Positions 28,391 to 49,871 of a stretch of 64,000 bases of DNA are shown piece by piece. Within the stretch, counting starts at the first letter, position 1, and every line of letters begins with the position of its first letter. The position numbers were made by a program, and so were the translations under genes. The notes under the pieces are model-generated. The model had not been told where the DNA came from. It made no database searches and was given only the letters and a program-made list of their open reading frames with translations. The DNA is from Acidimicrobiaceae bacterium (GTDB taxonomy: Bacteria > Actinomycetota > Acidimicrobiia > Acidimicrobiales > Aldehydirespiratoraceae), in NCBI GenBank assembly GCA_028819505.1, contig JAPPLH010000053.1, positions 1 through 64,000 of the forward strand, written 5' to 3'.

Positions 28391-28540
28391 CTAGCGGATC
28401 ACATCCAGAGGGACGGCGGCGGGAAGCGGCTCGATGTCGGGCGGGGGCTTGTCACCCCGCAGTACCGCGGCGATCTTGGCCGTGTGGGCAGGGGTGCTGC
28501 CGCAGCAGCTACCGATCACCCTCACTCCCGCGGCCCGTTG
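28391..28540 (-). pseudogene. Duplicate 3' fragment of a homocysteine S-methyltransferase gene
   Basis: Plus-strand bases 28431-28540 align with 30028-30137, the 3' part of the intact methyltransferase gene, with few substitutions. The minus-strand frame reads VIGSCCGSTPAHTAKIAAVL and then a different tail ending at TAG 28391. The catalytic Cys pair is kept, but everything N-terminal is missing because the AAA/DUF4143 gene begins to overlap. A truncated second copy or displaced original 3' end. Confidence 0.7.
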
Positions 28541-29874
28541 CCAGTGGGTACAGATCTGCTCGCAGGACCTCTCGAAGCTCTGGAAAGTACACGCCGGCGT
28601 TGTGGCGGGTGCCAGAGGACACTCAGGGGCAGCGCCCATACACGGTCGTCCAAGCGGATCGGCCACTTCCCGGCGTAGAGCACGGCACCGAAGCGGAAGG
28701 CGTGGCCGAGCGTGTCGCGCAGCCATAGAATCGAGCGGGCGTCGGATCGCGTGACGCTCTCAGACGACTTGACCTCCAGTGCCACCACCTTTCCGGCGCG
28801 TTCGAGGACACAGTCCACCTCGCGGCCGCTGTCGTTGCGGGCGTGGAAGATGCGGGTCTCGGCCGCTGCGGCCTCCAAGTGCGCGAGCAACTCCGTCACC
28901 ACGAACGTCTCGAACATCTGGCCCACGAGCCGCTCGGTACGTGCCAGCGAGGCCGCGTCCACGCCAAGCAAGTATGCCGCCATGCCAGGATCGACGAGAT
29001 GGACCTTCGGCGAGCGGGTCAGCCGCTTCACACGCGAGGCGTGCCACGCAGGCACTCGGAGCACCACCGAGAGGTCTTCCAGCAGCGCCATGTGCAAATC
29101 GGCGGTGCGTGCATCCACACCGGCATCGCGCGCTGTCTGCTGCTTGTTGAGCAGTTGACCTGTGCGAGCTCCACACGATTCAAGTACGGCACGCAGCAGC
29201 GTCGAGCGTGCGGCCCGTCCCGACACCTGCTGAGCATCCCGTTCGGCAAGCTGCTCAACGTAGCTTGCGTACCACCTCCTGCGAGCTTCTGGATCGAGGC
29301 GCACCGCCGCGGGCAGTCGCCCGCTCACGATCCGGTCGATGTAGCCCGCTCGGTCCAAGTCGCTGGTGCCGATGGCGTCGCCGATGCCGTCGAAGAGGGT
29401 GTCGACTGGGTTGTAGTCGCTGAGGCCTGCCATCTCCGCGCAGGTGAGTCCGTACATCCGGACGCGAACCAGTCGCCCCGTTCCGGGCCAGGTGGCTGCC
29501 TGTCGGGCAGCCCGGACCGAGCCGGCGACGATGAACCGCCCCGGTGTCGCGTCAAGGTCACGGTCGACTGAGCGCTTGATGGCGCCGAGAATCTCCGGCG
29601 CCTCCTGCCACTCGTCCACAAGCACAGTGCCGCGTGTTGGCGCAAGGAGCGTGTCGGGGCTCTCGCGAGCGGCCCGGCGGGTGCCCGGTTCCGACAAGTC
29701 GAGGACCTCGTCGGCGAGCGTCGTAGCGGAGGTCGTCTTTCCGCACCCTCGCGGGCCGACGAGATGCAGGGCGGAGAATGCTGGCAGCAGCCTCTCCCGC
29801 ATGAGTCCCTCGACTATGCGCGGATATCGCCGGCGCGGCCCGAGATCGTCTGTTGCAGTGCCGGGTTTGCTCAC
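28522..29874 (-). CDS. AAA ATPase with C-terminal DUF4143 domain
   Basis: A 450-residue protein of the AAA_14 plus DUF4143 group. The Walker A loop GPRGCGKTTSATTLA lies near residue 40, GTVLVDEWQEAPEIL is Walker B, and AGSVRAAR is the sensor region. The C-terminal DUF4143 part ends in a nuclease-like fold with RIFHARNDSGREVDCVLERAGKVVALEVK (GREVD and EVK as in PD-(D/E)XK). The normal end near VWALPLS runs on about 35 residues into the methyltransferase fragment, so the native stop may be lost. GTG 29874 has a TATTGT -10 and is preceded by 23-bp-spaced repeats. Function of the group is not known. Confidence 0.8.
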   Translation of the reverse strand: MSKPGTATDDLGPRRRYPRIVEGLMRERLLPAFSALHLVGPRGCGKTTSATTLADEVLDLSEPGTRRAARESPDTLLAPTRGTVLVDEWQEAPEILGAIKRSVDRDLDATPGRFIVAGSVRAARQAATWPGTGRLVRVRMYGLTCAEMAGLSDYNPVDTLFDGIGDAIGTSDLDRAGYIDRIVSGRLPAAVRLDPEARRRWYASYVEQLAERDAQQVSGRAARSTLLRAVLESCGARTGQLLNKQQTARDAGVDARTADLHMALLEDLSVVLRVPAWHASRVKRLTRSPKVHLVDPGMAAYLLGVDAASLARTERLVGQMFETFVVTELLAHLEAAAAETRIFHARNDSGREVDCVLERAGKVVALEVKSSESVTRSDARSILWLRDTLGHAFRFGAVLYAGKWPIRLDDRVWALPLSVLWHPPQRRRVLSRASRGPASRSVPTGNGPRE

Positions 29875-29880
29875 AGCCGA

Positions 29881-29886
29881 ACAATA
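29881..29886 (-). promoter_or_regulatory. -10 of the first AAA/DUF4143 gene
   Basis: TATTGT on the minus strand stands six bases before GTG 29874; it overlaps the promoter-proximal repeat unit. Confidence 0.5.
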
Positions 29887-29922
29887 TGTATGATTTCCGC
29901 GACTTGCAATGTATGATTTCCG
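29886..29922. repeat. Two 14-bp direct repeats, 23-bp period
   Basis: ATGTATGATTTCCG occurs at 29886-29899 and 29909-29922; on the gene strand this reads CGGAAATCATACAT. The period of 23 bases puts both copies on similar faces of the helix. A third, degraded unit may follow upstream (around GCAAATTGCACAT on the gene strand). Probable binding sites controlling the AAA/DUF4143 gene. Confidence 0.75.
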
Positions 29923-29954
29923 GAGTCTTGGATGTGCAATTTGCGGCAAGACCC

Positions 29955-46427: not shown

Positions 46428-46620
46428 CAAGGCCGCCCGTGCCGTTACGTCCCGCCCAGCAAGAGGCCCCGCGGATAGCCGAGCGAACCCGTTCCATACG
46501 GGGCGGGGCCGTGGCCCGAGCGGCCCTCAGGTCGCAGCGAACAAGAGCGGGAATGACACCGCTGCGGCGCGACCGGCTTGCATCAATCCGCGCACGCTCT
46601 AATGCGGTCAACGGCAGCCG
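46428..46620. other. Gap between the catabolic operon and the iterons
   Basis: No gene or RNA was recognised in this stretch between the operator and the GCTGCAA repeats; it contains a few GC-rich inverted repeats of no clear form. Confidence 0.4.
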
Positions 46621-46689
46621 GCTGCAAATATCAAGACGATAGTGCTGCAAACTCTCAGATGATTTAGCTGCAATTTATCAGATAGAGTG
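46621..46689. repeat. Three direct repeats with a 23-bp period
   Basis: GCTGCAA begins at 46621, 46644 and 46667, each followed by an AT-rich half unit ending in TATCA or CTCAGAT. The last unit runs into TAGAGT (46683-46688), a likely -10. Same period as the repeats before the first AAA/DUF4143 gene. Confidence 0.75.
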
Positions 46690-46730: not shown

Positions 46731-48017
46731 ATGAGCATTCTGCCCGATCGTTTCGACTACCGGCCGCGGGTCGTGGACTCCGAGGTCGCTCGGCGCCTGC
46801 GACTGTTGCCGACGGTGTTGATCGAGGGCCCCCGCGGCTGCGGGAAGACCACCACGGCACGGCGCTTGGCCAATCGAGAGCTCCTGTTGGACCTGGACGC
46901 CAATGCCCGGAGCCACGCCGCCCACGGCACTCTGCCCCTCGATCGAGGCCCCTTTCCGCTGCTGATAGACGAGTGGCAACTCGCGCCGCAAGTCTGGAAC
47001 CGGGTGCGGCGGGCCGGCGACGCCCTGCAGAGCTCGGGGCGGTACCTGCTCACCGGGTCGGCCAACCCCACCGACGACATCACCCGGCACTCCGGCGCGG
47101 GCCGGGTGGCCCGGGTGAGGATGCGGCCGATGTCGCTGTACGAGTCGGGCGCATCGACCGGGGCGGTGAGCGTGGCCTCGCTGCTCGACGGCGGCGTCTG
47201 CTCGGCCTGGCCGGAGGGCGACGGGCGGACCGACGCGGAACTTCGGTACGTGATCGAGGCTCTGTGCCGCGGCGGGTGGCCTGCCTGCCGCGCCATGTCG
47301 GTGGGCGAGGCCCAGGAGTTCCTGCGCCTGTATCTTGACGAGACCTGCCGCGTGGATGTGCCACGGGTCAACGGCGTCCGACACGACCCGGCCGCAGTGA
47401 GGCGCACGATCGTCTCGTTGGCGCGCCACAGCGCGGCGTCGCCCTCCGGCTCGACGCTGGCCTCCGACATCGGCGGGGGGAAGCCGATCGCTCATGAGAC
47501 CCTTGCCGGATACCTGGATGCTCTCGAGCGCATCTTCGTTGCGGAAGATCAGCCTGCCTGGTCGCCTCACCTCGCCTCGCGCTCGCGCCTGCGCAAGGCC
47601 TCCAAGCGCCACCTCGCCGATCCGGCTCTGGCCGTGGCGGCGCTGGGCGCCGGCCCGCAGCGGCTCTTCGACGACCGCGAGATGCTGGGGCATCTGTTCG
47701 AGTCGATGGTCGTGAGAGACCTGCGCGTCTACGCCCAGGCGGGTGGCGCCGAAGTGTTCCACTTCTTGGACAGCAACCGCCTTGAGGCCGATGCCATCGT
47801 TCAGCGGACCGACGGATCATGGCTGGCGGTGGAGGTCAAGCTCGGAGAGGCCACCTCTGTGGACGGTGCCGCCGAAGCGTTGCTGAGGCTCCGAGAACGG
47901 GTCGATACCCGGCGGATGGGAGAGCCGGCCAAGCTGCTGGTGGTCACCGCCACCGGCTACGCGCACGAGCGCTCCGACAGCGTGGCTGTGGCTCCGCTGA
48001 CTCTTCTAGGCCCCTAA
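46731..48017 (+). CDS. AAA ATPase with C-terminal DUF4143 domain
   Basis: A 428-residue protein of the same class as the gene at 28522. Walker A is in LLPTVLIEGPRGCGKTTTARRLA, Walker B LLIDEWQLAPQVWN, and the AGSANPTDD-like sensor follows. The C-terminal half contains RHLADPALAVAALG, LFESMVVRDLRVYAQ and a nuclease-like end VFHFLDSNRLEADAIVQRTDGSWLAVEVKLG. ATG 46731 lies 42 bases after the -10 TAGAGT. Its 3' end abuts a 21-codon remnant of a gene cut at the methyltransferase stop. Function of the family is not known. Confidence 0.82.
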   Translation: MSILPDRFDYRPRVVDSEVARRLRLLPTVLIEGPRGCGKTTTARRLANRELLLDLDANARSHAAHGTLPLDRGPFPLLIDEWQLAPQVWNRVRRAGDALQSSGRYLLTGSANPTDDITRHSGAGRVARVRMRPMSLYESGASTGAVSVASLLDGGVCSAWPEGDGRTDAELRYVIEALCRGGWPACRAMSVGEAQEFLRLYLDETCRVDVPRVNGVRHDPAAVRRTIVSLARHSAASPSGSTLASDIGGGKPIAHETLAGYLDALERIFVAEDQPAWSPHLASRSRLRKASKRHLADPALAVAALGAGPQRLFDDREMLGHLFESMVVRDLRVYAQAGGAEVFHFLDSNRLEADAIVQRTDGSWLAVEVKLGEATSVDGAAEALLRLRERVDTRRMGEPAKLLVVTATGYAHERSDSVAVAPLTLLGP

Positions 48018-48023
48018 CCCGGA

Positions 48024-48089
48024 CTACCTGGCCGTGATCTGTTCGTCGAGTTCGTCTTCGTTCCAGCGAGGCGGATCGATCAGGCTCAC
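48024..48089 (-). pseudogene. Truncated partner gene of the DNA methyltransferase
   Basis: GTG 48089 overlaps the methyltransferase stop (GTGA), then VSLIDPPRWNEDELDEQITAR ends at a TAG at 48024, seven bases from the AAA/DUF4143 stop. The overlap architecture looks like a coupled restriction or specificity gene, of which only 21 codons survive. The remainder is either lost or was replaced by the AAA/DUF4143 gene. Confidence 0.4.
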
Positions 48090-49750
48090 GCGGCGAACTC
48101 TTCCAGCATCCTGGGTTCTGGCACAGGGATCCGGCCCATCTCCGACGGCTCGAACTTCATGAGGCCGCCGGCGTATGTTCGTCCTACCGCAGATGGTGCT
48201 GCGGCGCGCAGCGCTGCTGCCAGTGCATCGAGGGCAGCAGCGGACATGGCCTCTCGGGGATAGATGCCATGAACGACGTTCACATTGCGGGCCGTCGAGA
48301 GATTGCGGACGAACGCTGGCGGACGCCTTGCCATATAGGTCGCGAGGATGGGAGCAGGATCCCGCAGGCCCACAGTCCACCAGGGGTTGCGATTGCGAGC
48401 GATGTAACCAGAAAGGACCCCGCGTCGCTCGGCAGACCGAAGGAACCGGTCGATGAGGAGGCGGTCAGCGTCGTCGAACACTTCGAGGTCGGCCGGTAAG
48501 TCGATCACGGCCCGTAGGCCACGTGTGCTTGCCAGAACACCGTCCGAAGCGTTGAAGAGTTCGGCTGCCCGGGTGACCGACGGACGGAGCACCTCCTGTG
48601 GCAGGGCCGGGTTGTCGGCGTCGGTGATCCATATGGAGTTTGCGCCGGTCACTGCGCCACGATGCACGCGACAGATCTCGCCCAGTTCTACGTAGCCCTC
48701 AGGCGGCTTGTTTGAGCCATTGAGCAGCGCAGACCATCTTGGGGCGGCACGCAACTGTTGTCGCCTGAAGGGCTGCCCGCCGTCCAGCACGCCCAGGTCG
48801 GACGTGCTCGGGATTCGCTCCATGCGAATCGACGCACCAGGCTCACCTACCTCAAAGCAGGTGACGGCTGCAGTTGTTGCTGTGTCGGCGAAGGGTGTCG
48901 CATGTGGATCGACTAGGTGGATTGAGACTCCGCCTAGCTGGGTCGCGAACAGCATCCTCGGCAGGTGGCCGTAGTTCACGTCAAGCCACTCTGACGAAGT
49001 CACGAACGCGCCGAGGTCGCCAGGCCGGACATGCAGGGCGGTGGCCAGCATGAAGTGGACGTGCATCCCGGCCAGGCCGCTGGCCTTCAACCCGAGGGCG
49101 GCCGAGCTGGCAGCTAGCCATTCCTTCCATTCCGGCTCGATCTGGTGGTGGCGGACGTAGGGCGGATTCCCGATGTAGGCGGTGGGGCCATCGAACTCGC
49201 CGAAGTCAGCGTCGCGATAATCTCGCACCAGGATCTGCGCCCGATGGTCAAGACCCGCCGCGGTGAGGTTGGCCCGGGCCAGTAGTGCGGCGAGTGGGTC
49301 GATCTCCACTCCGACCAGCAGGGCTTCCGGCAGCACGCGACCAGCTTCCAGCAGGAACCGGGCCGAGCCTGTCCCAGGATCGACAACGCGGGCTGGCCTT
49401 GACCGTGCCGCAACCCAGGCGACGATCGAGGACACGATCTCGGAAGGTGTGTAGGTCGCGCCGAGCGGCCTGCGCTGGTCAGGCGGGCGCAAGCGCATGA
49501 GGGCGTCGCCTAGAGGATCCTTGCCCGAGCGGATCAGGTCGATCAGTCCGCTGTGGTCGGCAGCGTGGTCGGGCGCCTCTAGGGCCTGCACGAGGCGGTA
49601 CTCGGGCGCCGACAGCCCGGCAAGCTGGCCATGCCGGACGATCGACCAAGCAGCCCTGGCGAGGTCCTGCTCGCCGCACAGCCCGCCTATAGCGATGGCC
49701 AGTGAACTTGTCTCGCAGCCGATCAGCGTCACTTGGTTGCAGTCTGACAT
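48086..49750 (-). CDS. N6-adenine DNA methyltransferase (Eco57I/TaqI-like)
   Basis: A 554-residue class of m6A methyltransferase with specificity domain. LGATYTPSEIVSSIVAWVA, VVDPGTGSARFLLEAGR (AdoMet site), and IGNPPYVRHHQIEPEWKEWL (catalytic NPPY) come first; a C-terminal target-recognition part (about 330-554) contains NSIWITDADNPALPQEVL and RNRNPWWTVG. The start ATG 49750 is preceded by no good Shine-Dalgarno. With its restriction partner truncated (48024-48089), it would act as an orphan methylase. An inverted repeat TTTTACA-N8-TGTAAAA is 120 bases upstream. Confidence 0.82.
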   Translation of the reverse strand: MSDCNQVTLIGCETSSLAIAIGGLCGEQDLARAAWSIVRHGQLAGLSAPEYRLVQALEAPDHAADHSGLIDLIRSGKDPLGDALMRLRPPDQRRPLGATYTPSEIVSSIVAWVAARSRPARVVDPGTGSARFLLEAGRVLPEALLVGVEIDPLAALLARANLTAAGLDHRAQILVRDYRDADFGEFDGPTAYIGNPPYVRHHQIEPEWKEWLAASSAALGLKASGLAGMHVHFMLATALHVRPGDLGAFVTSSEWLDVNYGHLPRMLFATQLGGVSIHLVDPHATPFADTATTAAVTCFEVGEPGASIRMERIPSTSDLGVLDGGQPFRRQQLRAAPRWSALLNGSNKPPEGYVELGEICRVHRGAVTGANSIWITDADNPALPQEVLRPSVTRAAELFNASDGVLASTRGLRAVIDLPADLEVFDDADRLLIDRFLRSAERRGVLSGYIARNRNPWWTVGLRDPAPILATYMARRPPAFVRNLSTARNVNVVHGIYPREAMSAAALDALAAALRAAAPSAVGRTYAGGLMKFEPSEMGRIPVPEPRMLEEFAA

Positions 49751-49871
49751 CGCGCCGCCCTGCGTGTGGGGATACCTCGCACGAAAACGTATGTTCGCAT
49801 CCGGGTGCGACACGCCGGAGCCCGACAGCGGTGAGAGTCGATGAGGGACGTATCTAGAGAAGTGTTGGCTC

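Follow-up and report, generated by a model that had tools for sequence, protein, structure and literature searches.

23-bp promoter repeats as putative self-operators of AAA_14-DUF4143 genes

PDC-S01, a PADLOC candidate defence system in which an ATPase is fused with a domain of the PD-(D/E)XK type, is reported to rank fourth in abundance among prokaryotic defence systems. One survey counted 29,494 instances in bacteria and 9,986 in archaea, and most such candidates still await validation (PMC12988326). The sections of that paper bearing on PDC-S01 contain no promoter array, operator, self-recognition or mechanism. Two proteins encoded in the window, i.e., the whole 64,000-nucleotide stretch of Acidimicrobiaceae DNA analyzed here, matched the PDC-S01 models (PADLOC profile PDLC04790; E values, 5.5e-63 and 8.3e-109). 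Both also contain PF13173 (AAA_14) followed by PF13635 (DUF4143) above the curated cut-offs. AAA_14-DUF4143 is a very common yet uncharacterised bacterial gene. No description of promoter repeats was found in the open-access literature on DUF4143, COG1373 and PDC-S01, an absence that is only weak evidence of novelty because subscription papers and preprints were outside the scope of this search.

Upstream of the first of these genes, referred to as the window gene, GCTGCAA begins at 46621, 46644 and 46667, in exact 23-bp steps, and the last unit abuts TAGAGT at 46683-46688. The features of this region are as follows.

46621 to 46689, plus strand: putative self-operator array of three 23-bp units (46621-46643, 46644-46666 and 46667-46689), based on sequence and periodicity
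46622 to 46635, plus strand: unit 1, 14-bp predicted recognised core CTGCAAATATCAAG (model columns 19-22 and 0-9), based on phase alignment
46645 to 46658, plus strand: unit 2, predicted core CTGCAAACTCTCAG
46668 to 46681, plus strand: unit 3, predicted core CTGCAATTTATCAG, between the -35 and -10 positions
46683 to 46688, plus strand: probable -10 element TAGAGT, immediately following core 3, based on sequence and consensus only

The best period in the region upstream of the window gene was 23 bp with a score of 16, compared to a maximum of 11 in 200 dinucleotide shuffles (p = 0.005). GCTGCAA is not wholly locus-specific, as a YTGCAAA half is common to much of the family; the locus-specific letters of the window array are mainly those after GCTGCAA, plus its first two. 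The leader of approximately 40 nt with a GAGG-like ribosome site makes the window gene an exception to the leaderless look of the family. To the left of the module, a sequence of approximately 39 bp (window 46462-46500) was found at dozens of sites in the same genome and related genomes, and it resembles a dispersed repeat or a terminator.

The second gene is on the minus strand, with a GTG at 29872-29874 as its likely start, and has an array of its own.

28522 to 29874, minus strand: second AAA_14-DUF4143 gene
29886 to 29930, minus strand: its own array with a 23-bp period and a sequence unlike that of the window array, detected by Tandem Repeats Finder
29881 to 29886, minus strand: TATTGT, a box resembling a -10 element whose end is 6 nt from the GTG start, as in leaderless genes, based on sequence

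A leaderless appearance is common to the second gene and much of the family. The two arrays have the 23-bp period and the promoter-proximal position in common, but not their sequence. The initial annotation had described 23-bp GCTGCAA repeats meeting TAGAGT, and this held with exact positions. It had also placed an array before a gene at 28522; the period and position of that array held, but 28522 is the stop end of the minus-strand gene. Its statement that the two arrays share architecture and not sequence was confirmed.

The check proposed in the initial annotation, in which upstream regions are scanned for a 22–24-bp periodicity and set against shuffled and unrelated promoters, was performed on 318 unique AAA_14-DUF4143 genes from the window's genome and its relatives, other phyla and plasmids. 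These genes were sampled by homology and are not independent, though their array sequences differ. The best period was exactly 23 bp in 205 of the 318 genes, 22 bp in 23 and 45 bp in 10, the last of which could be read as 22 plus 23; in the close family, the 23-bp period was the best in 181 of 213 genes. The window's genome has 36 DUF4143 matches, and among 30 DUF4143 genes with a usable upstream region in this genome, 25 showed a significant period, which was exactly 23 bp in 21. A wide GTDB sample spanning Acidimicrobiia, Gammaproteobacteria, Gemmatimonadota, Chloroflexi, Myxococcales and others gave 66 of 71 genes at 23 bp, and plasmid-borne copies were significant at 22 or 23 bp in 12 of 14 cases. 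The 23-bp period was enriched relative to both controls, being the best period in 5 of 503 windows slid along the 64-kb stretch and in none of 25 ABC-transporter genes of the same genome. These results support the earlier suggestion that the repeats are a system-level feature of AAA/DUF4143 modules, but the feature is not universal. The mid-distance branch mixes 22 and 23 bp, no upstream direct repeat was found at several distant-branch genes (L001, L015 and L031), and significant inverted repeats were present at 22 of 50 distant genes versus 2 of 50 close ones.

Several individual loci deviate from the common form. L235, L236, L245, L361 and L364 belong to the mid-distance branch with 22-bp arrays, and strong upstream palindromes replace direct repeats at L070, L083, L126, L375 and other distant DUF4143 genes. 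The AAA/DUF4143 gene L030 (G000:C138) has several near-identical upstream units with a 19-bp period, which may represent a fresh expansion or a different spacing. The array of L025 (G000:C62), with approximately six units, is open in the frame of the gene, and an upstream ORF translates the repeat several times.

Circular alignment of 114 arrays, performed blind to the proteins, resolved the repeat into a common half, YTRCAAA, and a variable half. The information content was 6.5 bits versus 3.7–3.8 with shuffled columns. Arrays had a median of 2.8 units (up to 6.9) and ended a median of 23 nt from the start codon. TAnnnT peaked 6 nt before the start codon, where it was found in 38 genes versus approximately 4 at most other distances, as in leaderless genes. 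The -10 box had no fixed phase against the repeat, with only weak preferences. Outside the arrays, no repeat copies were found in 121 loci, except for three units at array edges, and the repeat of L012, searched with up to three mismatches, was found in its own array alone in a 3.7 Mb genome. Each array is locus-specific on this evidence, of which the genome-wide part rests on the one array tested.

The protein encoded by the window gene has the following features.

46731 to 48017, plus strand: AAA_14-DUF4143 gene, 428 aa, with an AAA+ ATPase, a winged helix and a PD-(D/E)XK nuclease-like domain (Pfam, PADLOC PDC-S01, AlphaFold2 model)
46827 to 46850, plus strand: Walker A motif, aa 33-40, with G33, G38 and K39 in 192 of 192 proteins
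47490 to 47531, plus strand: winged-helix recognition helix, aa 254-267, of which 254-256 covary with repeat columns 5, 6 and 8 (AlphaFold2 model, covariation)
47772 to 47777, plus strand: hairpin residues aa 348-349, which covary with repeat columns 20 and 19, respectively (AlphaFold2 model, covariation)
47784 to 47840, plus strand: nuclease motif E352-x-D354 ... E368-x-K370, in 184-191 of 192 proteins

E352, D354, E368 and K370, together with the Walker motifs, are nearly invariant across the family. In the AlphaFold2 model (mean pLDDT, 93), the recognition helix (255-267) begins at residues 254-256, and residues 348-349 lie in the turn of the hairpin that bears the predicted catalytic E352. 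A sequence search for relatives with solved structures returned none that was credible (best E value, 0.03).

Covariation between residues and repeat columns was calculated as background-corrected mutual information over 191 arrays (effective number, 154) with 200 global permutations. The five strongest pairs were aa348 with column 20 (0.269), aa255 with column 5 (0.211), aa256 with column 6 (0.188), aa256 with column 8 (0.167) and aa349 with column 19 (0.164), and all of them exceeded the maximum of the 200 permutations (0.150). When arrays were swapped between close relatives (mean identity, 0.55), the pointwise means of the five pairs were approximately 0.03 or less. The pairings are chemically sensible, joining Arg or Lys to G, Asp or Glu to C, and Asn to T: at position 348, Asn occurred with T in 99% and Asp with C in 84%, and at position 255, Arg occurred with G in 71% and Lys with G in 85%. 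Among protein pairs at 45–60% identity, the similarity of the columns assigned as contacted rose from 0.27 to 0.74 as the number of common specificity residues rose from 0 to 5, and repeat columns 10-18 remained flat at 0.29–0.34 in the same pairs. The similarity of the variable half tracked most closely with the protein segment that contains the putative recognition helix. Its correlation with full-length protein identity was only rho 0.04, and whole-protein similarity was therefore rejected as the source of repeat similarity. Because residues 254-256 and 348-349 covary with single repeat positions, it is very likely that the protein reads its own repeats, although there are no binding data.

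A residue-base code was trained only on proteins less than 60% identical, with the residue pairs chosen on the full data. In the window's genome, the own array had a mean rank of 5.25 of 20 (expected, 10.5; p = 0.0002), with poor ranks for L006 (15 of 20) and L023 (17 of 20). The code placed the own array of the window gene at the 95th percentile of 188 others and that of the second gene at the 99.5th. An earlier set of 174 arrays gave an AUC of 0.80, versus 0.52 for random variable residues; when pairs were chosen on training clusters only, the mean held-out AUC was 0.64 (chance, 0.5). Copies with the same specificity were found in none of 420 pairs within genomes versus 74 of 17,725 pairs between genomes. 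This absence fits insulation but is too weak as proof, as approximately 1.8 pairs were expected and the difference is not significant. No two array-bearing copies in one genome exceeded a protein identity of 0.68. Overall, most main-branch copies have private promoter repeats, and each copy appears to recognise its own promoter because the DNA-reading residues of the protein change in step with the repeats. The initial idea of locus-specific self-recognition is thus supported by covariation and own-array rank in the absence of binding data. Its purpose is not shown; most likely, it means that the copies regulate themselves and that paralogues are insulated from one another.

In many homologous copies with unrelated flanks (e.g., L262/L263 and L121/L124), the common sequence begins near the start of the array and runs to the stop codon, so the array and the gene travel as one compact unit. 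In the relative G282, the neighbours of the window gene are present without the module, and 413 bp of other sequence is found there. The gene is solo in the window and in annotated plasmid neighbourhoods, with no recurrent partner. A pattern search of IMG/VR gave one relative, and more distant ones are not excluded. The right neighbour in the window (48024-49813) encodes an N6 DNA methylase, and a short remnant beside it suggests possible displacement or truncation of a companion gene by the module.

These analyses show the arrays with their period and position, the covariation of residues with bases, and the conservation of the catalytic motifs. The explanation that we favour as a whole, a self-repressing protein on a private array, is likely, with binding, repression, oligomer stacking, trigger and effector role all inferred. 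The module would consist of one gene and its own operator array, and the protein would bind the approximately 14-bp core of every 23-bp unit. The winged-helix recognition helix would read columns 5-8, and the hairpin beside the nuclease motif would read columns 19-20; the two sites are approximately 9 bp apart, near one helical turn by an inferred geometric reading, and the A-rich stretch between them would probably be met by the wing. Several protomers would line up on the array with the 23-bp spacing of approximately two turns. Because the array runs into the promoter, these protomers would block RNA polymerase, and the gene would repress itself. With its own recognition residues and its own repeat, each copy would avoid cross-regulation among the many copies. 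On a trigger, which might be infection, the protein would be released or re-assembled, setting the ATPase-nuclease free. A defence role is inferred and is suggested only by the PDC-S01 label. The protein is thus likely to be an autoregulated AAA+/winged-helix/PD-(D/E)XK protein with orthogonal self-operators, in which binding and repression remain inferences.

Repeats touching a promoter could also activate instead of repress, and it remains possible that the protein activates transcription from the array or assembles on it as a platform, like initiators on origin repeats. The top Foldseek match was Cdc6/Orc1 on origin DNA (E value, 7e-6), an AAA+ and winged-helix protein with adjacent cognate direct repeats resembles Orc1/Cdc6 genes located by origin boxes, and the location of the array immediately before the -10 box would suit an activator. 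However, a role as origins is hard to reconcile with up to 36 copies per chromosome, the location of the window's third core inside the promoter spacer favours occlusion, and the low Foldseek TM-scores (0.20) limit the resemblance to one of arrangement. It is less likely that the array is the target of the nuclease itself, with the activated protein cutting or nicking repeat-bearing DNA and thereby making copies of equal specificity incompatible or keeping out incoming DNA that carries the same module. Residues 348-349, assigned to base reading, lie 3-6 positions before the catalytic E352/D354, the catalytic motif is kept in 184-191 of 192 proteins, and near-identical arrays were absent from all 420 within-genome pairs. 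Against this, an enzyme that was always active would cleave the promoter of its own gene, the depletion within genomes falls short of significance (approximately 1.8 pairs expected), and there are no cleavage data.

Two further explanations are very unlikely. The repeats could be by-products of slippage or a structural or transcription-level DNA feature unbound by the encoded protein; tandem duplication can create repeats, and L030, with near-identical copies at 19 bp, looks freshly expanded. However, the 23-bp period is fixed across phyla, the units diverge yet keep the common half, and the covariation is concentrated in DNA-facing residues and vanishes on neighbour swaps. The module could also be a transposable element with the array as its left-end recognition site, as in the ends of Tn7, which contain repeated 22-bp sites. 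Modules in unrelated flanks that share sequence from array to stop codon, and the lack of the module at the window's site in G282, would be consistent with this. The combination of PD-(D/E)XK and AAA+ also recalls TnsA and TnsC. However, no array copies were found at the 3′ side or elsewhere in 121 loci, there is no integrase, and conservation stops at the stop codon of the single gene or close to it. In addition, near-identical copies are absent within a genome (maximum protein identity, 0.68), and the 413 bp at the G282 site is not a clean empty target. The promoter repeats were rejected as transposon ends in the absence of right-end copies in the 121 loci.

Compared to the favoured self-repression model, a bolder and wholly inferred reading is conceivable, in which the private array is an identity tag, the repeat being the lock and the recognition helix with the active-site hairpin being the key. 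The match of lock and key might decide whether the ATPase-nuclease is parked or attacking. The family would then serve to tell self from non-self or to enforce incompatibility, by means of a protein-DNA code that can be read. If each copy does read its own promoter, each would have a defined DNA ligand and the family a residue-base code, offering a way into what switches the gene on. It would then be unusual in two respects, in that a nuclease-like domain would contribute base readout at its own promoter and that dozens of paralogues in one genome would be kept apart by orthogonal operators.

Other known systems resemble parts of this arrangement. MJ-type archaeal ATPases and STAND NTPases (CED-4, NLRs) gave the best structural matches for the AAA+ and winged-helix part, namely PABY2304 (2qen; Z, 15.3; rmsd, 4.5; 256 aligned) and SSO1545 (2fna; Z, 14.0; rmsd, 4.7; 258 aligned). 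However, the sequence identity of these matches is 16-17%, the nuclease-like domain is barely covered, and Pfam assigns AAA_14 rather than the archaeal ATPase model to the window proteins. Iteron-binding plasmid replication proteins have direct repeats of approximately 22 bp and autoregulation by the product of the adjacent gene, but no replication function is indicated for the window family and its domain architecture is unrelated. Type II toxin-antitoxin operons are likewise small, occur many times in a genome and have autoregulated operators specific to each locus; the module described here differs in being a single gene, with no two-gene operon in the window or in annotated plasmid neighbourhoods. 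Orc1/Cdc6 initiators, the top Foldseek match, combine AAA+ with a winged helix and are encoded by genes located by cognate repeats. Both domains appear in the AlphaFold2 model, but the resemblance is tentative, as the match has low TM-scores. Unlike Orc1/Cdc6, the window family has a nuclease-like domain, dozens of copies per chromosome and repeats that overlap its own promoter.
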